A stretch of 64,000 nt of DNA from a virus: positions 1-64,000 of the IMG/VR virus record IMGVR_UViG_3300025379_000003. One strand, given 5' to 3'. Shown one piece after another: positions 16,726-32,729 of the stretch. Position 1 is the stretch's first letter, and the number at the start of each line of letters is the position of its first letter. Under the pieces are notes generated by a model that had not been told where the DNA came from, did no database searches, and saw only the letters and a list, made by a program, of their open reading frames with translations. The translations under genes were made by a program, and so were the position numbers.

Positions 16726-17022
16726 ATGGGATGGTTTAGTACCTTATATCAACGCATTGAACAAACTGAGCAGGAGCTGTTTGCTCAGGCCAAAAAACAA
16801 TCAGTCATGGCCACCACTGCTGTGGATCGGGCTCGTGCGGAGTTAGAAGCCAAGATTCAAGCAGCCGCGGATCTAGCTGAACAGGCAAGGATCACTGCTG
16901 AAGCTGCAGCCAATCGCGCAGCCAAGGATGCGGCCAACCTAGCCATTGAAGCTAGAGCGGCAGCTGAAGCCGCGGCCTATCATCGCAGTCAACTCACACC
17001 ACCTCAAGAGCCCACACTTTGA
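16726..17022 (+). CDS. Alanine-rich coiled-coil protein
   Basis: 98 residues, started at the ATG seven bases behind AGGAG. Residues 10-85 are a continuous helix rich in Ala, Glu, Arg and Gln (AELEAKIQAAADLAEQARIT), a typical coiled coil. Its stop overlaps the next start. Could be a structural or scaffold component. Confidence 0.77.
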   Translation: MGWFSTLYQRIEQTEQELFAQAKKQSVMATTAVDRARAELEAKIQAAADLAEQARITAEAAANRAAKDAANLAIEARAAAEAAAYHRSQLTPPQEPTL

Positions 17023-17732
17023 CATCAACCACTGCCACTGACCATACCGCAGAAGTCATCATGGGTGAAACACCTGCAGCCGAGGCCACAATACCTCCGC
17101 AGGGTGATCTACTGAGTCTACATCAGCACTTTGTCACCGGAGCCTATACCATAGTCAAACAGGATTTCCTGGACACATTGCGAGGAATCAGTCTACAGCA
17201 TCTGTCACTGACTAGGAAGAGCACCAAGCTCAATCCCCTATACCCCGTGTATCAAACTGCCAATCTCACTGGCGAGGAGGCACTACGGCCCTTCTTGGAC
17301 TATGTGGCACAGACTGGCTGGAACATATTAAACAGTCAGGGCTATGCCATGGATCATCTACAGATTGCCATGACCGAGGTATGGTGCCAGGAACATCACC
17401 TGCACAGCAGTATGGAATATCACACACATGGGCATGGCAGTCAACTATCGGGCTTTTACTTCCTAGACGTGCCCAAGGATTCCAGTATCATACAGCTACA
17501 CGATCCACGTCCAGGCAAGAACATGACCAATCTCCCTGAACGCAATGGGCGTGATGCCACCATGGCCAGTGGCAGTATCATATTTGCTCCCCGTGAAGGC
17601 TTGTTGTTCTTTACCAACAGCTATGTGCCCCACAGCTTTACACGTCACGGTGGTAAGAAGCCTCTACGCTTCATACACTTCAATCTCGCTGTGGCGCCTT
17701 TGCCCCCACCCGAGCCGCCTGAGATCATATGA
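17019..17732 (+). CDS. Putative 2OG-Fe(II) oxygenase
   Basis: 237 residues if the TTG overlapping the preceding stop is used; an ATG at 17061 is an alternative. The C-terminal half has the phage oxygenase pattern: HTHGHGSQLSGFYFLDVP (135-152), DPRPG, then GLLFFTNSYVPHSFTRHGG with the distal histidine at 205 and an arginine (R217) for 2-oxoglutarate. These match the jelly-roll 2OG-Fe(II) oxygenases common in T4-like phages. The substrate, protein or nucleic acid, is unknown. Confidence 0.78.
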   Translation: MTSTTATDHTAEVIMGETPAAEATIPPQGDLLSLHQHFVTGAYTIVKQDFLDTLRGISLQHLSLTRKSTKLNPLYPVYQTANLTGEEALRPFLDYVAQTGWNILNSQGYAMDHLQIAMTEVWCQEHHLHSSMEYHTHGHGSQLSGFYFLDVPKDSSIIQLHDPRPGKNMTNLPERNGRDATMASGSIIFAPREGLLFFTNSYVPHSFTRHGGKKPLRFIHFNLAVAPLPPPEPPEII

Positions 17733-19127: not shown

Positions 19128-20408
19128 ATGTCAGATACATTAGATCTTCTTCGTCAGCAGGTTGCGTCACTATCCAATGCCCAGGACTACGAAATCAAGG
19201 TCTATATGGGTAATATTTTGACCTATGTACCTGCTGCCACTGTACTCACTGATCCTGTGGATTTGGTATTATTGGGAGATCTTCAGGATCCAAGAACACA
19301 GTTGGTCAGCATATATGACGTCACTGACGACAGAGAAATGTCAGATTTGGCATTAGATGCTGAATGTATTCAAAATGATTCAGAATTCAATCAAATCTAT
19401 AGGTCCTTGATCTTGTTGCCTGTGCGTAGATACCCTGCTGATAATTTCACTGACCGTTCAGGAATATTTTTATCCGGATCACCAATTACCATACCGTCTG
19501 ACACTTACACTGCCAAGACCTACGCAGAGATCATGGATGAGACTGCTGGTAGCTATGCTAATTTGAATCCTGTGGTCATGTGGAGCGGAGGTATTGACTC
19601 CACAGCCATACTTGCTGCCTTGGTCAAAAACAATATTAAATTCAGTGTGGCCTTTGATGCCAACAGCCAAAGAGAATTTCCTGAGATGTACGACCATGTA
19701 CGACAAAATTTTGATTGTCTGCCTTTGAACAATTATCTTATTAATGATGCAATGCCCTCACATTTTGACTTTTTAAAACAACCGGTAAGCAATAGGACTG
19801 TGATCACTGGTGACTGTAATGATCAACTGTTTCCCGTACTACAGCACAATTTTAGTTTGGGCAAGAGATTTTTTAAATGTCATCAAGGCAGTGTGGGCGA
19901 TTCGAGAATTGATGACTTTTATAAATCACCCGTGAATGATTCGGACAAATATCTATCCGCAGAAGACTATTTTGTAAGTAATCATTCTAGAATACATCAA
20001 TGTGATACCGCAGTGAGTCAAGCACTGTATAATTCTGCTGTGGCTCCAAAATTAAGTCAGTTTCCTATGACAGTTGAATACGCATATCAACTGGCCGGCT
20101 ACTTTAGATTCATATTCAAATACCAAATGCACTTGGATAATCTAGTCCGTATGAATAAAAACACTCTGGGCAATAATTTTCAAGCATTTTATAACACTGA
20201 AGATTTTCAACGTTGGGCCATGACAAATTTTGAAACTCTTTATCAAACTGAATGTGCTACTTACACAACCATGAAGACCACGGTCAAACAATATAGTTAC
20301 AGTGTGTTCAATATTCCTGAAATTCTCAGTCAGCATAAACGTGGATCTGAATTAGATCGTAGCCTAACCCTTCCAGATAATTTACCCACAGCTGATACCC
20401 CGCAATAA
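19128..20408 (+). CDS. Asparagine-synthetase-like PP-loop enzyme without glutaminase domain
   Basis: 426 residues. The PP-loop motif SGGIDSTAILAAL begins at 153, and TGDCNDQLFP (228-237) corresponds to the TGxGxDE motif of AsnB-type enzymes. The N-terminal 140 residues do not show the Cys2 glutaminase start. Such PP-loop enzymes adenylate a carboxylate and then form an amide; the substrate here is unknown. It leads a cluster with sulfotransferase-like, methyltransferase and Tct genes. No Shine-Dalgarno is evident. Confidence 0.72.
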   Translation: MSDTLDLLRQQVASLSNAQDYEIKVYMGNILTYVPAATVLTDPVDLVLLGDLQDPRTQLVSIYDVTDDREMSDLALDAECIQNDSEFNQIYRSLILLPVRRYPADNFTDRSGIFLSGSPITIPSDTYTAKTYAEIMDETAGSYANLNPVVMWSGGIDSTAILAALVKNNIKFSVAFDANSQREFPEMYDHVRQNFDCLPLNNYLINDAMPSHFDFLKQPVSNRTVITGDCNDQLFPVLQHNFSLGKRFFKCHQGSVGDSRIDDFYKSPVNDSDKYLSAEDYFVSNHSRIHQCDTAVSQALYNSAVAPKLSQFPMTVEYAYQLAGYFRFIFKYQMHLDNLVRMNKNTLGNNFQAFYNTEDFQRWAMTNFETLYQTECATYTTMKTTVKQYSYSVFNIPEILSQHKRGSELDRSLTLPDNLPTADTPQ

Positions 20409-20416
20409 GTAAAGAT

Positions 20417-21019
20417 ATGAAATATATCTTTGTAACCGGCGCCCCAGGCTCTAGGTGGAGCAGTATACCACGACTGATCAAAGACAGTGTGGACATTGAC
20501 AGCACCGACTATACTGAGGATCGCACCTACAGTCATGCGGGTACCGAAATTATTTCGGGGTTTCATGGTGGTTCATACTTTGATCCAGGCATGGAATTTG
20601 GGCAATGGTTTGATCGACTCAGTGATCGTACGCCTGAACAGTGCGAGGCAGAATTTGATCGCCCCTTCTCAGGACAGGGTATACGCATCATACGCTGTCA
20701 TCATTTTGTTTATCATATAGATTTTTTGAGGGCTAACTGGCCCGACTGCCCCATAGTTCTAGTCTACCGTAATGACCGCGATTGTTTGGATTGGTGGATA
20801 AAATGCGGTGAATTCAATATCACCTATCCCAACTATCAATTCTATCGAGATTTAGACACGATGTCCAAACATATTGCTCTTCAGAACTATTGTCTGTTAA
20901 AATATTGGACAGGTAATGACATCAGGGACAATCATGAACTATGCCGAATTCTTGGCATCACCCCGCCAAAAGAATTTTTAGATTTCATTGCCAATGACAC
21001 ACATGTACGGATTGCATGA
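20417..21019 (+). CDS. P-loop sulfotransferase-like protein
   Basis: 200 residues. The N-terminus IFVTGAPGSRWSSI (4-17) resembles the phosphosulfate-binding loop of sulfotransferases, and PIVLVYRNDRDCLDWW fits the strand carrying the 3'-phosphate-binding arginine. The C-terminal helices are of the usual kind. The substrate is unknown. ATGA overlap with the methyltransferase gene. Other P-loop kinases remain possible. Confidence 0.67.
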   Translation: MKYIFVTGAPGSRWSSIPRLIKDSVDIDSTDYTEDRTYSHAGTEIISGFHGGSYFDPGMEFGQWFDRLSDRTPEQCEAEFDRPFSGQGIRIIRCHHFVYHIDFLRANWPDCPIVLVYRNDRDCLDWWIKCGEFNITYPNYQFYRDLDTMSKHIALQNYCLLKYWTGNDIRDNHELCRILGITPPKEFLDFIANDTHVRIA

Positions 21020-21552
21020 ATCAACAGGAACTAACACATTATTTCAGAGAAGTCTGGAGCACACTGCCTATCAGCAACATAGACAGGGTCATTTATTCTG
21101 GGCTACAACTGGCCAGTCGTATTAACGCCAATGAGCAAGTTATAGACATTGGTTGTGGTCGAAATCATTTCAAAAAACTTATACCTAATCTAATAGGCAT
21201 AGATCCTGCTTTTGATGAGGCAGATCATAGACTGACCTTGGAGGAATTTGCTCGAGTCAATCGAGAGCAGTTCAATGTGGCATTTTGTCTTGGCAGCATA
21301 AACTTTGGATCAAGGGAAACCATAGAAAATCAAATTGGCCTAGTAAAAAATCTACTGTTACCCAAGGGAAGAATATATTGGCGTTGTAATCCTGGAGTCC
21401 AAGACCACGGTGCTGTGGAAACTGAACTAATTGATTTTTATCCTTGGTCTTTTGAAGAACATATTAGACTTGCCGATGTGTTTGGTTTTAAAATTGTGGA
21501 ATTGCGATGGGATCAAACCAATCGAATCTACGCTGAGTGGCGTCTTAGATAA
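21016..21552 (+). CDS. SAM-dependent methyltransferase-like protein
   Basis: 178 residues. VIDIGCGRNHFKKL (43-56) is the class I SAM-binding motif, GIDPAF carries the acidic motif II residue, and LVKNLLLPKGRIYWRCNP is the typical post-IV strand. No target-recognition domain is present, so a small-molecule or peptide substrate is possible. Overlaps both neighbours by one to four bases, so it is co-translated with them. Confidence 0.76.
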   Translation: MNQQELTHYFREVWSTLPISNIDRVIYSGLQLASRINANEQVIDIGCGRNHFKKLIPNLIGIDPAFDEADHRLTLEEFARVNREQFNVAFCLGSINFGSRETIENQIGLVKNLLLPKGRIYWRCNPGVQDHGAVETELIDFYPWSFEEHIRLADVFGFKIVELRWDQTNRIYAEWRLR

Positions 21553-23009
21553 TGGACTTTGTAATTCAATATACACCTTGGCTGTTATTGGGCACTCTAT
21601 ATGGATTTGTGTTTGGCATTATTCCTGTGGCAGGTGCCGGCACAGCCTTGCTGACTATCTATAGTTTTATATCCTATTTCCGAGGCGACCCCTACAGTCT
21701 TATTGTGTTTACCACTGCCGTGGTTGTATCAGCCAGTGTGGGCGATCTGTTTGCCAGTGTGGTCATGAACATACCAGGAGGCGGGGGTAGTGCTGCCACC
21801 ATGGTGGATGGATATCCCATGGCTCAACGCGGTGAAGCTGCCAGAGCCATGAGTGCCAGTGTGTTTAGTTCAGTGAGTCAGGGCGTAGTATGGGGAACGT
21901 TAACTATTTTACTATTGCCCTACTATGCCAATGTGGTGTTGAGTTTTGGTATACCTGAACAGTGGGCATTTTTAATCTTGGCTGTTACCAGCATCTGTTT
22001 CTTAAGCAGTCAGTATTGGGCAAGAGGTATACTGGGACTGGTATTGGGTATATTTGCTGGATCGATTGGTACTGATCCTGTGACTAACGCTGAACGATTT
22101 ACTGGTGGCTGGTTTTATCTAGCCGATGGTATACAATTTGCTCCAGTCATGGCAGGGTTGATGGCACTGCCTGAAATCATAAACGCTGTTAGAATTAAAA
22201 CCACATACCTACAGTCATCTCAAGATAATTGGCTACAAATACGACAAGGATTTGGGGATTGGTGGGCGAACCGATGGATCAGTGTCAGAGGTGGAATCAT
22301 AGGTGGGGTAATTGGTATACTGCCTGGTATAGGCGGGGCTATTGTGGATTGGTTAAGCTATGGACAAACTGTGGCCACAAACAAAAATGAAACCATGCCT
22401 TTTGGATCAGGCAATGTCAAAGGTGTAATTGGTCCTGAGGGTGCCACACTGGCTCAAAAGGCCACTGCCTATGTGCCCACGGTATTGTTTGGTGTACCTG
22501 CGGCTCCTTTTGAAGCAGTGGTTATGAGCCTACTGGCCTATGTGGGATTGGATCTAGGAAGCCAAACACTGCTGTCAAATCACAAATTTTTTGATGCCTT
22601 GAGTTTTGGTTTCATGCTAAGTTTGGTTCTAACATTTTTTATCAGTATAGCGTTCATAAAATATGCCACAGCAATAACCCGTGTGCCCTTTAAGTATTGG
22701 GCGGCCCCTTTGATTGCCTTGATTGTTTGGTCCTGCGTCGACTATACAGGCGGCTGGGAGGATTATGCCATATTGTCCATAATGACCGCAGTGGGACTAT
22801 GTTTTAAATATTTCAAAATCAGTAGGATCAGTTTTATCATAGGCTTTACTCTTAGTCATAGATTGGAACTAACCACAGGGCAATTTTTGGCACTGTATAA
22901 ATTTCAAGATCTCCTGCATCATCCAATTAGTTTGTGTCTGCTTGCTTTTGGTGTAATAATACTAGTATACGGGTTATTTTTTAACCGCACAACCATTAAC
23001 TATCATTGA
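21552..23009 (+). CDS. tctA: TctA-family large subunit of a tripartite tricarboxylate transporter
   Basis: 485 residues with about a dozen hydrophobic stretches. TctA hallmarks are clear: GIIPVAGAGTA near 22-32, VMNIPGGGGSAATMVDGYP then MAQRGEAARAM (71-100), and the second glycine-rich repeat GGVIGILPGIGG (251-262). The length fits the family (about 500). TctA is the membrane channel of a secondary, binding-protein-dependent carboxylate transporter. The TctC-like gene follows seven bases later; no TctB is seen. Host-derived metabolic gene is the likely origin. Confidence 0.9.
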   Translation: MDFVIQYTPWLLLGTLYGFVFGIIPVAGAGTALLTIYSFISYFRGDPYSLIVFTTAVVVSASVGDLFASVVMNIPGGGGSAATMVDGYPMAQRGEAARAMSASVFSSVSQGVVWGTLTILLLPYYANVVLSFGIPEQWAFLILAVTSICFLSSQYWARGILGLVLGIFAGSIGTDPVTNAERFTGGWFYLADGIQFAPVMAGLMALPEIINAVRIKTTYLQSSQDNWLQIRQGFGDWWANRWISVRGGIIGGVIGILPGIGGAIVDWLSYGQTVATNKNETMPFGSGNVKGVIGPEGATLAQKATAYVPTVLFGVPAAPFEAVVMSLLAYVGLDLGSQTLLSNHKFFDALSFGFMLSLVLTFFISIAFIKYATAITRVPFKYWAAPLIALIVWSCVDYTGGWEDYAILSIMTAVGLCFKYFKISRISFIIGFTLSHRLELTTGQFLALYKFQDLLHHPISLCLLAFGVIILVYGLFFNRTTINYH

Positions 23010-23015
23010 GGACAA

Positions 23016-24062
23016 ATGAAGAAACTTTTACTAATTATTTTATTCTGTGCCTGTAATTTGGCACTGGCAGATATGACTGTGGTAGTACCCAGCGCCACCG
23101 GGTGGCCCACTGTGGTTATTCCAGAACTGGCCAAGGCCTTGGGCGAGCCTATTCGATCAGAAATTATACAGGGCGCTCGAGATATTCCTGCCGGCAACAA
23201 ATGGGCAGAAAAATATCGTTATGATGACTCCTATATGTGGTACAGCAACGGCGGGCAAGCAGAAGCATACCTACTAGAAGATGTTAAGTTTAATTTTAAC
23301 GACTATGAACCTATCCTAGCACAAAATCAAACTATCATTGTGAGCTATAATAAAACACAGGACCCCTACAAAAACATCATCAAGTTTGCCGCAGGGTCTG
23401 GTATGAATCCTGATGCCATGGCCATAACCATGATGGTTTGTGGACCGTTGCCCAAGATGGCAGACTATTTGGATTGTTTTCGTAAACATGTTATCTATGT
23501 TCGGGGTATGAAAAATTCTGAAACAGCACTGGGATTTATCAGAGGCGAGCTAAATGTTACTAGAGAAAATCCCTTTCTCTACAAACAACAAATTGAACCA
23601 TTGGCATTTAATCAAACATGGTTCTCAGCAGGACTCATGGACATTAAGACAGGCAAGTTAATTTCAGATACAAACTTTCCCAAGGGCCAAAGTACATTTA
23701 ACGAAGCATATAAGGCCAAATGGGGCAAAGATCCTAGTGGCGAGTTTTACGATGCTTGGCTATTGGTCAAAAGCTATAGGGACGTATTACAAAAAGTTAT
23801 TTGGGTCAATAAAAATAACCCCAACAAGGATAGATTGATTGCCGCGGCCCGAAAGATGATTGCTGATCCAGAAAGTCAACAAATTATTACCAGCAGAGTT
23901 GGAGCATATCCTTGGTTAGTGGGCGACGAAGTTCGACAAGCACAAAAGAGATTAGACAGTATGTTGACTATAACAGCCCTGAAAAACCTAGTTGTATGGA
24001 CTAACGATGCTTACGGCATACAGGCCATAATTAAGCCTGAAATTGTAAGCCAACACAAATAA
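23016..24062 (+). CDS. tctC: TctC/Bug-family periplasmic solute-binding protein
   Basis: 348 residues with a Sec signal peptide (MKKLLLIILFCACNLALA, cleavage before D19) and a GAGG-type ribosome site. VVVPSATGWPTVVIPELAKA and later YEPILAQNQTIIVSY follow the pattern of TctC (Bug) binding proteins, though the canonical PGG motif is altered to SATG. It would capture a carboxylate for the adjacent TctA. The ligand is unpredictable. It may bind a different ligand or be specialised for infection. Confidence 0.82.
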   Translation: MKKLLLIILFCACNLALADMTVVVPSATGWPTVVIPELAKALGEPIRSEIIQGARDIPAGNKWAEKYRYDDSYMWYSNGGQAEAYLLEDVKFNFNDYEPILAQNQTIIVSYNKTQDPYKNIIKFAAGSGMNPDAMAITMMVCGPLPKMADYLDCFRKHVIYVRGMKNSETALGFIRGELNVTRENPFLYKQQIEPLAFNQTWFSAGLMDIKTGKLISDTNFPKGQSTFNEAYKAKWGKDPSGEFYDAWLLVKSYRDVLQKVIWVNKNNPNKDRLIAAARKMIADPESQQIITSRVGAYPWLVGDEVRQAQKRLDSMLTITALKNLVVWTNDAYGIQAIIKPEIVSQHK

Positions 24063-24764: not shown

Positions 24765-24784
24765 ATATTTATTCCAATAAATAT
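24765..24784. promoter_or_regulatory. Divergent late promoter pair
   Basis: ATATTTATT and AATAAATAT lie back to back around CC, giving TAAATA on both strands: six bases before the ATG at 24790 and seven before the ATG at 24758. Confidence 0.62.
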
Positions 24785-24789
24785 TGGAT

Positions 24790-25368
24790 ATGACAACAGT
24801 TAAAAATAAAACTTATTTTGGCTACTTATTATGTTCTAGTCCTAGAACCAGCCACCATGCGCTTGAACATGGTGTAATATTAGTGGTAAGTCATACTCCT
24901 GACATTGCTATTGGTATACAAATTAATCAAGCCATCCCTAACCAAACACTTCAAGAAATCAGTAGTAGAATTGGTATAGATATTGACGGCCATGATCCCA
25001 TATGGTTTGGTGGCCCAAATGGTCAAGATCGAGTACATGTCATACACAGTAAAGATTGGTCAGGTCGCTCAACAGTGTCTATCAATGATGAGTTATCCAT
25101 AACCAACGATATATCAGTACTCACTGCGCTGAGTGCTGGAGAAGGCCCTAGCATGTTTAGGGCATGTGCTGGATACTGGAGTTGGGAAGGAATTGAGCTA
25201 GCACAAAGCCTATCAGTCCGTCCCAGTAAAAAAATCATGCGTAACAGTATGAGTTGGGAAACTGTACCTGCTACTGTTGATCTAGTACTAAGTTCGCATG
25301 GTGGCGAACATCAATGGCAACAGGCTATTGATGCCAGTGCGTATCATCAAGCCAGTCTTTGGTTTTAA
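24790..25368 (+). CDS. AlgH/YqgE (UPF0301)-like protein
   Basis: 192 residues from the ATG behind a late motif. HGVILVVSHTPDIAIGIQIN then Q, IWFGGPNGQDRVHVIHS, and GEGPSMFRACAGYWSWEGIE match the order of motifs in the bacterial UPF0301/AlgH family (N-terminal GxxxN strand, GGP motif, Y-WxxGQL-like motif). The bacterial function is uncertain. Its presence in a phage late transcript is unusual. Ends four bases into the gp41 gene on the opposite strand. Confidence 0.74.
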   Translation: MTTVKNKTYFGYLLCSSPRTSHHALEHGVILVVSHTPDIAIGIQINQAIPNQTLQEISSRIGIDIDGHDPIWFGGPNGQDRVHVIHSKDWSGRSTVSINDELSITNDISVLTALSAGEGPSMFRACAGYWSWEGIELAQSLSVRPSKKIMRNSMSWETVPATVDLVLSSHGGEHQWQQAIDASAYHQASLWF

Positions 25369-29252: not shown

Positions 29253-29802
29253 TTCTCTCACAGATCAAATTCATTTGAACAACTATAGCCATTGCGTAGG
29301 CCACAGCGTGTGCTTTTTTAAAATAATAGTCGTCAGTCGTCGGCTTCGTCCATACTTCTGCGAATATGTCGTTCCAGCTCTTGTCTAAGAGGTGTTTTTT
29401 TGCTGGGCGTATTATTGCCAAGCAGGCCGCGAGCTCTTCTATTGTTTTCGGTTTCAGCGTCTTCAAGATGTGCCCGTGACCATTCACGTGAAATAAGAGA
29501 TTCGTGAATTCTTCTTGTTCTAGTAGATCCCATAATGGCTCCGTTGATAGTAATGTGTTTAAATGTTCTTCATTTTTGATGTCTTTATATATGCTGACAT
29601 TCAAAAAATCTATCTTAAAATAGCCCCTTGCTTCAGCGATCTTATATTCAATACTGGATTGTCCAGTCAATGGATTAACTGGAATCTCCTGTACATAAAT
29701 TCCTGTATTGTGTTTTTTGACTCCGTCGATGGTTGCTGGTACATGTTTAATTACATCAAGTATCTGCGTTCTATCGGCAAAATCGATATCAATGTCTGGC
29801 AT
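29233..29802 (-). CDS. DnaE-like fragment protein (DNA polymerase III alpha-related)
   Basis: 189 residues. It begins MPDIDIDFADRTQILDVIKH, the catalytic PDIDxDF motif of bacterial DnaE, then YFKIDFLNVS and an AAVLA/IRPA-type helix (LAACLAIIRPAKKHLL) and KKAHAVAYAMAIVVQ, all in DnaE order. It is far too short to be a polymerase; related short proteins occur in T4-like phages. It is likely a domesticated DnaE palm/finger remnant of unknown role. Overlaps the kinase gene by 14 bases. Confidence 0.75.
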   Translation of the reverse strand: MPDIDIDFADRTQILDVIKHVPATIDGVKKHNTGIYVQEIPVNPLTGQSSIEYKIAEARGYFKIDFLNVSIYKDIKNEEHLNTLLSTEPLWDLLEQEEFTNLLFHVNGHGHILKTLKPKTIEELAACLAIIRPAKKHLLDKSWNDIFAEVWTKPTTDDYYFKKAHAVAYAMAIVVQMNLICERISYEYS

Positions 29803-30574
29803 TTATTTCGTCCAATGTTGGGGCATAATTTCCTCGGTGTTGTACTGTGATACTGGCCGCGGCATTAGCAAATATTATAGCACTATCTATATCCTTTGTC
29901 ATTAGGTATTGATAAGTCAATGCTGATAAAAAGGTATCACCACATCCGCATACATCCACTATTTCGGCAGGGTATCCATCGTAAACCGCTGTTAGAAAAT
30001 CTTTTTTATACATAGCACCTCGTCCACCTAGAGTAATAATCATATTACTGGCTTCGCTAGTTCGTTTGCTATATTCTAATTCATTAATTTTGATAAAAGC
30101 AGGATTAAATCGTCTTAGGTCTGTTTTTTTGGTGTCAATAAAAATTGGGCCATCAAACGATCTACATACATGTTGCATTTCTGAATATGTTAAAAATCCT
30201 TTATTGTAATCGCTCATTACAATGGCATCATAAGTTTCTAAAGGTAGTGTAGTGCGGCCACTCCAGGGAGTTAGTTCACAGTCATTATCTACTCTTAATA
30301 AATGTTGACCAGATTTTTTATCAATGTAACGTGTCTTTGTAATTGTTTCCGCATTGGTAATAAAATCAACTTTGCAACCTAATGTGGTTAAATTTTTATA
30401 TACATTACTGGCCATACCCGGTGTGGTATAGTGGTCCCGAATATTCATAATGGGAACAGGTGCTTCGGGATTTAGTCTATCGCAAGTACCTATATAGTAC
30501 TCGTCAGTACAACTGTCACCCAATAATAATATCTTGAATGATCTTGCTGGTTGAATAGTCGCCAACTCTGTCAT
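29789..30574 (-). CDS. HldE-type heptose-7-phosphate kinase domain protein
   Basis: 261 residues, PfkB/ribokinase fold. LNPEAPVPI (34-42) is the signature of HldE (RfaE) kinase domains, and GCGDTFLSAL (210-219) carries the catalytic Asp213. Shorter than the roughly 310-residue bacterial domain. It would phosphorylate D-glycero-D-manno-heptose 7-phosphate at C1, the first HldE step. Gene order and overlap with the nucleotidyltransferase and epimerase genes support one pathway. Confidence 0.87.
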   Translation of the reverse strand: MTELATIQPARSFKILLLGDSCTDEYYIGTCDRLNPEAPVPIMNIRDHYTTPGMASNVYKNLTTLGCKVDFITNAETITKTRYIDKKSGQHLLRVDNDCELTPWSGRTTLPLETYDAIVMSDYNKGFLTYSEMQHVCRSFDGPIFIDTKKTDLRRFNPAFIKINELEYSKRTSEASNMIITLGGRGAMYKKDFLTAVYDGYPAEIVDVCGCGDTFLSALTYQYLMTKDIDSAIIFANAAASITVQHRGNYAPTLDEINARH

Positions 30575-30917
30575 AATAAACTACTTCCTTACAATATTGA
30601 TGTGCTGTGGATTGTGTGTCCGTTTTCCAGTCACTACCCTTGACATACACATCTGGTTTATACATTTTCATCAGTTCAATTAATTCTTCTGTACTATCAA
30701 AAAATTCTACAACATCCACAGCTTTAAGATTTGATAACATAGTACGTCTAAAATTTTGATTGTTGATTGGTCTTTTGTGGCCTTTAAGTTCTTTAACACG
30801 TCGATCTGTGTCTATTGCCACAACAAGATAATCACCATAACTACGGGCAGTGTTTAACAACGCCACATGTCCAGGATGCAAAATATCAAATGTTCCGTTA
30901 ACCATTACCGTGGTCAT
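30516..30917 (-). CDS. HldE-type nucleotidyltransferase domain protein
   Basis: 133 residues with GTFDILHPGHVALL (8-21, HxGH motif), RVKELKGHKRPIN and DVYVKGSDW: the second HldE domain as a separate protein. It would transfer AMP from ATP to heptose 1-phosphate to give ADP-heptose. The bacterial bifunctional enzyme is thus split into two genes here, overlapping by 59 bases in different frames. Confidence 0.87.
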   Translation of the reverse strand: MTTVMVNGTFDILHPGHVALLNTARSYGDYLVVAIDTDRRVKELKGHKRPINNQNFRRTMLSNLKAVDVVEFFDSTEELIELMKMYKPDVYVKGSDWKTDTQSTAHQYCKEVVYYDRVGDYSTSKIIQDIIIG

Positions 30918-31681
30918 GGATAATATTTCCGTAACTTGGTTAAGTCGGCACAGGTGTATTTTTGGTACTGTGACTTGATATCATCAGGCATTGGAATATA
31001 TTCAATCCGTGCTTCCATACCTTCAGCAATAGTTTCTGCTATATGCTGAAATGATTGAGGTTTGCCAGTGCCCACATTCCATATACCAGTTTCTTTAACA
31101 TCAAAAAATTTCTTGTGTATGTTGATTACTTCACTCACTGGCACAAAATCACGTTTAAAATTTTCGCTACCTTCAAACAATTTAATCACACCAGTTGTTT
31201 CTGCTTGCTTGGTAAATTTGTGATGCGGGCTCGGTTGATCCTTGTGATCTTCGTGTGGACCGTAGACATTAAAATATCGAAACCCTTGTACAATAATGTT
31301 GTCAAATTTTTGTGATTTGACATGTCTATCAAACAAATATTTGCTCCAAGCATAAGGACTTTGCGGACTTAGTTCGCCATCCTCGCTGAAGTTTGGACCC
31401 ATGCCATATACACTGGCACTGGATGCGTATTGTAAATTTACCTTGTTGATTTGGCAAGCCACAAGCAACATACAACTGAAGTCATGATTTTGTCGCATGA
31501 CCTTTTCCACATTCTTTTCGTTGGTACTACTGATAGCACCAAGATGAATACACCAGTCAAGACCTTCAAATTCTGGAACTTGATCTCCCCATTCATAAAA
31601 ACTTAATTCATGTTCATCTTTGAGCGCATTGACCATATTTTGGCCAATAAATCCCTTATATCCTGTGATTAAAATTTTCAT
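30914..31681 (-). CDS. hldD: ADP-L-glycero-D-manno-heptose-6-epimerase (HldD-like)
   Basis: 255 residues, short-chain NAD(P) epimerase: GYKGFIGQN (7-15), YASSASVYG with the catalytic Ser, YAWSK (Y110, K114), FRYFNVYGPHEDHK and RDFVPVSEV are all HldD signatures. It would convert ADP-D-glycero to ADP-L-glycero-manno-heptose. Somewhat shorter than the 310-residue enterobacterial form. ATGA overlaps with both neighbours. Confidence 0.88.
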   Translation of the reverse strand: MKILITGYKGFIGQNMVNALKDEHELSFYEWGDQVPEFEGLDWCIHLGAISSTNEKNVEKVMRQNHDFSCMLLVACQINKVNLQYASSASVYGMGPNFSEDGELSPQSPYAWSKYLFDRHVKSQKFDNIIVQGFRYFNVYGPHEDHKDQPSPHHKFTKQAETTGVIKLFEGSENFKRDFVPVSEVINIHKKFFDVKETGIWNVGTGKPQSFQHIAETIAEGMEARIEYIPMPDDIKSQYQKYTCADLTKLRKYYP

Positions 31682-32037
31682 TTTTGACTGTCACCTTTAC
31701 CCACACGATAGTTGTCTTCAACAGAGTCCGGAGTACTTACTTCAATGACAGTACCCGCTTCTAGGCATTCAATTTGGTGTGGCATACATGGAGGATTATG
31801 CCACACAGCACCGTCATGTACTTCTTTTTCGTAAACTTCTGCGTTAATAGTATCAATCCAACGGATAATAAACTTGCCTGATTGTATATACCATGTTTCT
31901 TCTTTGTCTTTATGAAAGTGCATGCTAAACTTAGCACCTGTGTTAAAGTTCATAAATTTTCCACAGTACTTGTCATTGGTAGCCCAAATATATTCCGAGC
32001 CCCATCCTTTTGGAACTAATCCTTTTAATTGTGTCAT
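31678..32037 (-). CDS. Cupin-fold protein linked to heptose genes
   Basis: 119 residues from the ATG in the ATGA overlap with the upstream gene; a longer frame exists but lacks that coupling. A single cupin: FNTGAKFSMHFHKDKEETWY (metal ligands H, H, E) and VWHNPPCMPHQIECLEAG (distal H). It resembles the cupin of mannose-6-phosphate isomerase or sugar epimerases. Its position suggests sugar-related work, but the substrate is unknown. Confidence 0.78.
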   Translation of the reverse strand: MTQLKGLVPKGWGSEYIWATNDKYCGKFMNFNTGAKFSMHFHKDKEETWYIQSGKFIIRWIDTINAEVYEKEVHDGAVWHNPPCMPHQIECLEAGTVIEVSTPDSVEDNYRVGKGDSQK

Positions 32038-32729
32038 ATAATACCTGCCTCTTCGCAAATTTCTTTTACCAGCGCAACATCTGCTGGCACTTCTTTAAAT
32101 CTTTTTAACCAATACGGAACATCAAAAGCCGGAGCAATCATATCCAACTGTTCGTCACTCATTGTCTGTATCATTTTTTTACCAGTGTTGGTATTTAAAA
32201 TTACCCACGGGCTAATATTGCCGTTTCTAATATCATGTACTGCTTTGTTTAAACTAACATAATTGAAATAATGTTCAAATTGTGCTTTGTGTTCGTCGGC
32301 CCATTCCATCATATTTTGTATGGTTCGTTGTACTGCGGATTCCACCGGCTCTGTCTTTATTGTGTCATACAGATATTTTTCGTATAAGTCGTCTCTACAC
32401 CAGTGATCCAATTTGATTCCGCTTTTAATCACATAGTCAACAAATTTGTCTGGATATAGTGGATTAGTATTGTTTATAAAAGAACCAAATTTAACAAAAG
32501 CATTATAGTAGGCAGTATCACAAAATTCTTCATAGGTTTTGAGCTTTTTTCCGCCTTGGGCCAACTGCCAGAATCTATTAAATGCCATGTAGCCAGCTTG
32601 TACTCTCTTTTCATTTTTTTGAAGCGCACGGCGTTTTCTTTCGCACATATGAGCCACAAGAGTTTTTTCTTGTACAAATGCCTTGCCACAATGAGCGCAC
32701 TTATTAGACTGATTCACCAACGCTATCAT
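32034..32729 (-). CDS. Conserved phage protein with N-terminal zinc finger
   Basis: 231 residues. CAHCGKAFVQEKTLVAHMCE is a C2H2/C2HC-type zinc finger near residues 11-30, followed by a long helical domain (RVQAGYMAFNRFWQLAQGGK, MMEWADEHKAQFEHYFNY). Similar proteins occur in T4-like aquatic phages; no function is established. Nucleic-acid binding is inferred. Confidence 0.75.
   Translation of the reverse strand: MIALVNQSNKCAHCGKAFVQEKTLVAHMCERKRRALQKNEKRVQAGYMAFNRFWQLAQGGKKLKTYEEFCDTAYYNAFVKFGSFINNTNPLYPDKFVDYVIKSGIKLDHWCRDDLYEKYLYDTIKTEPVESAVQRTIQNMMEWADEHKAQFEHYFNYVSLNKAVHDIRNGNISPWVILNTNTGKKMIQTMSDEQLDMIAPAFDVPYWLKRFKEVPADVALVKEICEEAGII

Follow-up and report, generated by a model that had tools for sequence, protein, structure and literature searches.

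A TctA–TctC gene pair without TctB in uncultured aquatic phages: a putative two-part carboxylate importer

The subject of this article is a pair of genes on a 156,630-base virus contig from a T4-like phage. The window, meaning the whole stretch of DNA we analysed, covers 64,000 nucleotides of that record. The first gene of the pair, tctA (positions 21552–23009, plus strand), encodes the large membrane subunit of a tripartite tricarboxylate transporter (TTT). It is 485 amino acids long, carries no TctB domain and was recognized by its match to PF01970. The second gene follows after 6 bp (23016–24062, plus strand) and encodes a TctC-like periplasmic solute-binding protein of 348 amino acids, assigned from its TctA neighbour, a fold match and a weak match to the solved TctC 6hke. 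Both ORFs are intact. Upstream lie two more plus-strand genes that recur beside the pair in other viruses and that we refer to as cassette members S and M. S (20417–21019) is P-loop sulfotransferase-like, judged from the recurrence of its family and an AlphaFold model; M (21016–21552) is methyltransferase-like, with a weak Methyltransf_23 match below the Pfam cut-off. S overlaps M by 4 nt and M overlaps tctA by 1 nt, the coupling to an upstream methyltransferase that the initial annotation of this DNA had pointed out. Since S, M, tctA and tctC all overlap or abut, they look like one tight operon. Another plus-strand gene (19128–20408), resembling ATP-pyrophosphatases of the PAPS-reductase or Asn-synthase type (weak matches to PF01507 and phrog_424), ends 8 bp upstream of S. 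It is probably on the same transcript, and it is outside the conserved cassette.

The rest of the record is that of a phage. It holds a terminase (E 5e-117) and a T4-type Gp23 capsid gene (E 7e-82, at ~90.5–91.5 kb), and the locus recurs, 100% identical, in three other assemblies, which excludes mis-assembly. There is also a DnaB-type helicase gene, adjoined by an AlgH/DUF179 gene at 24784–25368 (E 1.7e-21). Elsewhere in the window are a 2OG-Fe(II) oxygenase gene of a type common in phages (17019–17732; 2OG-FeII_Oxy_5, phrog_81), ~4 kb upstream of the pair, and a row of PfkB-type kinase, nucleotidyltransferase-like, epimerase and cupin genes (29789–32058), a sugar-nucleotide set like that of heptose activation.

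TctA is the more readily identified of the two proteins. The signatures first noticed in it belong to an uninterrupted ORF that matches PF01970 at E 6.4e-81 over profile positions 3–422 of 423, a full-length match that places it among the TctA subunits of the TTT family (TC 2.A.80). The family signature is a duplicated motif of the form G-Hy3-G-Hy3-G-Hy2-P-G-Hy-G, of which one copy agrees and the other departs. The second is intact (GGIIGGVIGILPGIG); in the first (GTLYGFVFGIIPVAG) PG has become PV, and most viral TctA members have S, V or A at the changed position. Viral TctAs run to ~440–525 amino acids and end after the TctA domain. A sequence search of the PDB found no structure for TctA, an NCBIfam search returned nothing for either protein, and neither matched a PHROG family.

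The partner is more distant from anything characterized. By inspection of its translation, the TctC-like protein begins with a Sec-type signal peptide at residues 1–18 (23016–23069, plus strand), MKKLLLIILFCACNLALA followed by D, with a positive N terminus, a hydrophobic core and a cleavage site between ALA and D. Pfam gave no match to the protein, and even with the threshold at E 1 the TctC model PF03401 recognized none of the 12 viral members tried. Its nearest solved relative by sequence is TctC 6hke, and weakly so (E 0.05, or 0.02 with a profile). The AlphaFold model (pLDDT 85.9, pTM 0.86) is more telling. Its top Foldseek matches are TTT binding proteins, from E 7.6e-8 down, and the solved structures among them (MatC with malate, BugD, TphC, the terephthalate-binding protein TBP and Bug27) outrank almost every other binding protein. 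TM-scores of ~0.5–0.67 make it a distant relative of these solved proteins. By its predicted fold and its signal peptide, then, this is a TctC-type binding protein, as the initial annotation had it. That annotation also held that the PGG motif is altered. The alteration is real, but it is not peculiar to the window. A deletion of five residues at the PGG loop is common to six freshwater-type members (the window, L009, L010, L011, L029 and L031), and in most other viral TctCs the loop that follows the first strand is still of PGGGT type. So far as alignment tells, the deletion is a clade trait. As the window protein has no PGGGT loop, its ligand may differ from those of classical TctCs.

The pair is a conserved family found in hundreds of uncultured aquatic phage contigs. 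Pattern scans of IMG/VR, built from an alignment of viral TctCs and another of viral TctAs, found at least 326 relatives of TctC and at least 434 of TctA. TctA is present at 56 of 59 non-redundant viral TctC loci, and at the remaining three the contig begins at TctC or no more than 90 bp from it. The converse holds too: TctA as the query brought up 78 loci, 74 of them with TctC as well and four on contigs that stop at TctA. Wherever a neighbour was visible in a fetched locus, both genes were there, usually TctA and then TctC, and all 40 of the whole viral records we examined contain TctA. The two genes are under purifying selection (dN/dS between pairs of relatives is 0.03–0.17 for both, and ~0.03–0.09 for TctA) and diverge in step. 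Across 48 viruses, TctA and TctC distances correlate with a Mantel r of 0.79, a value reached in none of 2000 permutations.

Some viruses depart from the usual layout. One (L165, 6010–11150) has two TctA–TctC pairs in tandem, and three (L058, L227 and L229) have extra TctC copies or an unusual gene order. Some others place a signal-peptide protein of 195 amino acids, matching nothing in Pfam, between TctA and TctC (L061, 7363–7950; L041, 823–1410); it is possibly a small outer-membrane barrel. Outside IMG/VR, the TctC pattern matched once among 84,980 species genomes, on a contig (L028, from G041) in a GTDB Pelagibacter MAG. We rejected this contig as a cellular relative. It shows phage gene order and carries the whole cassette, and its binning is either contamination or a weak hint of a host. 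Among 50,697 phage records the TctC-like protein found no match, and we discarded the TctA matches there, which were to short or unannotated records or to a bacterial assembly record, at 24–29% identity.

Where is TctB? The initial annotation described TctA and TctC without it, and our search of the rest of the record agrees. The Pfam model for TctB matched nothing over the 156,630 bases, and a scan of the record in pieces found no other unshadowed ORF of at least 80 amino acids with three or more predicted membrane helices. Two genuine TctBs, used as controls for that scan, scored four and three helices. TctB, separate or fused, is therefore not found in the window's record, and 39 of 40 records with the pair likewise gave none. 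The exception is G025, a 182-kb T4-like contig. Its TctB lies 45 kb away from the pair and adjoins another TctA, one of cellular type that falls among standard cellular TctAs in our tree. The row to which these two genes belong (L100, 8986–15339) continues with a BtuB-type TonB-dependent receptor with a Plug domain and a DUF6580 membrane protein; these are possibly genes for the uptake of vitamin B12 or of something else across the outer membrane. We considered whether a divergent TctB might sit in the gaps that some viruses have between TctA and TctC and rejected the idea: what lies there is a methyltransferase, 2OG-oxygenase-like genes or the 195-residue protein with the signal peptide, rather than membrane proteins. 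Whole-record absence may partly reflect incomplete records, and because TctB is poorly conserved, sequence searches can miss it.

The cellular relatives bear on the same question. We sampled Pseudomonadota (399 genomes), the order of the Pelagibacter MAG, and plasmids. The nearest cellular TctAs in this sample are ~30% identical to the viral ones and considerably longer, at 647–683 amino acids. Their extra 150–200 C-terminal residues match the TctB model weakly but where a fused TctB would be expected (E 7e-6 to 0.0025, below the Pfam cut-off, and undetected in several members); when hhalign compared this domain with one TctB, the match was not significant. The best cellular TctC matches (E 1e-20 and weaker) adjoin the best TctA matches in the same genomes. 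The same apparent TctAB fusion occurs in SAR11 genomes and on Rhodobacterales plasmids. A review mentions one such fusion, in Paraburkholderia caribensis (PMC5812351). In our sample a TctA with a C-terminal TctB-like domain is not rare, turning up in ~14 of the 399 Pseudomonadota and in SAR11 as well (L125–L137, L236–L262).

No viral TctA copy has this C-terminal domain. The phylogeny that the initial annotation had called for, run for TctA, gives a single virus-only clade (SH-aLRT 100 in a 48-row tree; 100/100 in a 24-row tree), and this clade groups with the fused cellular TctAs at 100/99 among the sampled Pseudomonadota and plasmids. Support for the fused cellular group itself is 54/19, compatible with viruses branching either beside it or within it. 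Two histories would fit: the loss of a fused TctB on the viral side, or a fusion on the cellular side once the two lineages had parted. On both accounts the viral clade is, going by its sequences, one without TctB. The neighbourhoods of the cellular genes hint at what the ancestral system carried. Of 27 cellular fused loci, 17 lie beside genes for PrpF or 4-oxalomesaconate tautomerase and eight beside TcuA-type dehydrogenases; tricarballylate and PrpF genes are, in short, frequent neighbours of the cellular kin. These neighbours suggest tricarboxylates such as tricarballylate or aconitate as the ancestral substrates.

What might such a pair do for a phage? The reading we favour, and consider reasonably probable, is that of a virus-specific TTT with two parts, its need for TctB most likely lost, through which the infected cell would take up a di- or tricarboxylate. 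On the pattern of established TTT biology (reviewed in PMC5812351), the TctC-like protein would be exported to the periplasm during infection, where it would bind a di- or tricarboxylate and hand it to TctA, and TctA would carry it across the inner membrane by symport, drawing on an ion gradient. The virus would supply no TctB, and the system would most likely no longer need one. Once inside, the acid would feed the central metabolism of the infected cell or, alternatively, the adjacent 2-oxoglutarate-type and other encoded enzymes. Transport activity, its direction, the class of substrate, independence from TctB and a benefit to the phage are what we infer here, from family membership, predicted fold, strict linkage, shared descent, purifying selection and the absence of TctB from nearly all records. 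The initial suggestion that the phage adds carboxylate uptake survives in this form, as the most likely role of a conserved pair under selection, and a putative one. Its companion suggestion, a change in host-transporter specificity brought about by TctC, we disfavour, since the phage TctC invariably comes with a TctA of its own and co-diverges with it.

To our knowledge, no function has been established for TctB. An unlikely but serious alternative, also put forward at the outset, is that the viral TctA and TctC borrow a host TctB, or a host TctAB fusion, and form a three-part hybrid with it. The weightiest point against a two-part importer is that neither membrane subunit, TctB included, could be spared in the Comamonas terephthalate system, the one tested terephthalate system that PMC5812351 cites, so a system without TctB may need host help. 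A partner could be at hand in some SAR11 genomes, which hold a separate classical TctC–TctB–TctA set beside the fused system (L236). Set against this, the nearest cellular kin appear to have TctB fused, so that there would often be no free matching TctB to borrow, and the loss of TctB is uniform over a deep viral clade whose hosts are presumably diverse. We regard borrowing as possible and do not favour it over the two-part importer.

The genes around the pair raise a different question: who uses the acid? At the 59 viral loci, M is found in 46, S in 45, a second P-loop protein family in 17 and a 2OG-oxygenase-like family (O, assigned by its HxD...H motif only) in 29. These families cluster tightly, with densities of 0.15–0.41 per kb within 1 kb of the pair against ~0.01–0.02 beyond 2 kb; for S alone the figures are 0.41 per kb within 1 kb and ~0.02 beyond. 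A tentative elaboration of the two-part importer, which we would on balance doubt, has TctB lost once, early in viral evolution, and the importer serving as the core of a cassette whose methyltransferase, sulfotransferase-like and 2OG-oxygenase-like members use the acid directly. A distinct and rather improbable proposal is that importer and enzymes together build or decorate a molecule from the acid, which would then not be meant for general metabolism. The clustering is what one would expect of this, as is the close packing of S, M, TctA and TctC in the window, where neighbouring genes touch or overlap. Yet the members are not the same from virus to virus (some are absent, their order changes and so, at times, does their strand), the O family is missing beside the window's own pair, and the enzyme assignments are weak. 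The model of the S protein, for instance, is a confident one (pLDDT 91), and what it matches in the PDB, weakly throughout, is a mixture of sulfotransferases and kinases.

It is very unlikely that the pair is no importer at all and instead alters the cell envelope, for example in blocking superinfection or in sensing. Orphan TctC proteins are thought to act in sensing (PMC5812351), but strict pairing with a full-length TctA, co-divergence and purifying selection fit transport better. Host contamination or decaying captured genes, a concern voiced at the outset in terms of mis-assembly and frameshifts, we reject as next to impossible: there are cellular kin, and tctA is widespread in bacteria, but the record has its hallmark genes, three assemblies repeat the locus, the ORFs are intact and under purifying selection, and the clade is virus-only, with one contig, in phage order, among all those species genomes.

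If the two-part importer is real, many aquatic phages, T4-like ones included, add a high-affinity organic-acid uptake of their own to the infected cell. It would be a possible input of carbon during infection, and one missing from phage family libraries, as the lack of a PHROG match attests. A large natural family of TctA–TctC pairs without TctB would also show what a minimal transporter is, and it would make the question of TctB directly testable.

How does the phage pair compare with what is known? A tctA on SUP05 viral contigs was noted as a domain match (PMC4164917, repeated in PMC6359870), and "tricarboxylate transport" genes were reported in a norB/nirK myovirus (PMC8115048). These are TctA-type genes on phage DNA and, going by their descriptions, may be of the same family. 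They are mentioned in passing, and the passages concerned do not bring up pairing with TctC, loss of TctB, a clade or a cassette. In the literature we reached, which took in few subscription journals or preprints, we found no description of the pair, of the cassette, of the viral clade or of its lack of TctB; on that coverage we assert no priority. Archaeal TctAs without TctB or TctC have been described (Winnen 2003, as cited in PMC5812351). Both systems do without TctB, at least as the archaeal one is cited there; the phage system retains a TctC-type binding protein. BFVD contains further phage-encoded binding proteins, of the Bug type and from uncultured Caudovirales (A0A6J5T247 and others). 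They have the same fold, but at 10–15% identity they are a different family. Like the classical TTT, Salmonella TctCBA, the phage has a full-length TctA and a secreted binding protein of TTT fold, encoded by adjacent genes. Unlike it, the phage system has no TctB, its binding protein escapes the Pfam TctC model, its genes usually run TctA then TctC, and it forms a virus-specific clade. Closest of all are the TctAB-fusion TTTs of Pseudomonadota (L125–L137, L236–L243, with those of SAR11 and the Rhodobacterales plasmids). Their TctAs are longer by the TctB-like domain that the viral proteins lack, and they provide the nearest sampled TctA and the nearest sampled binding protein, encoded, as in the phage, side by side.
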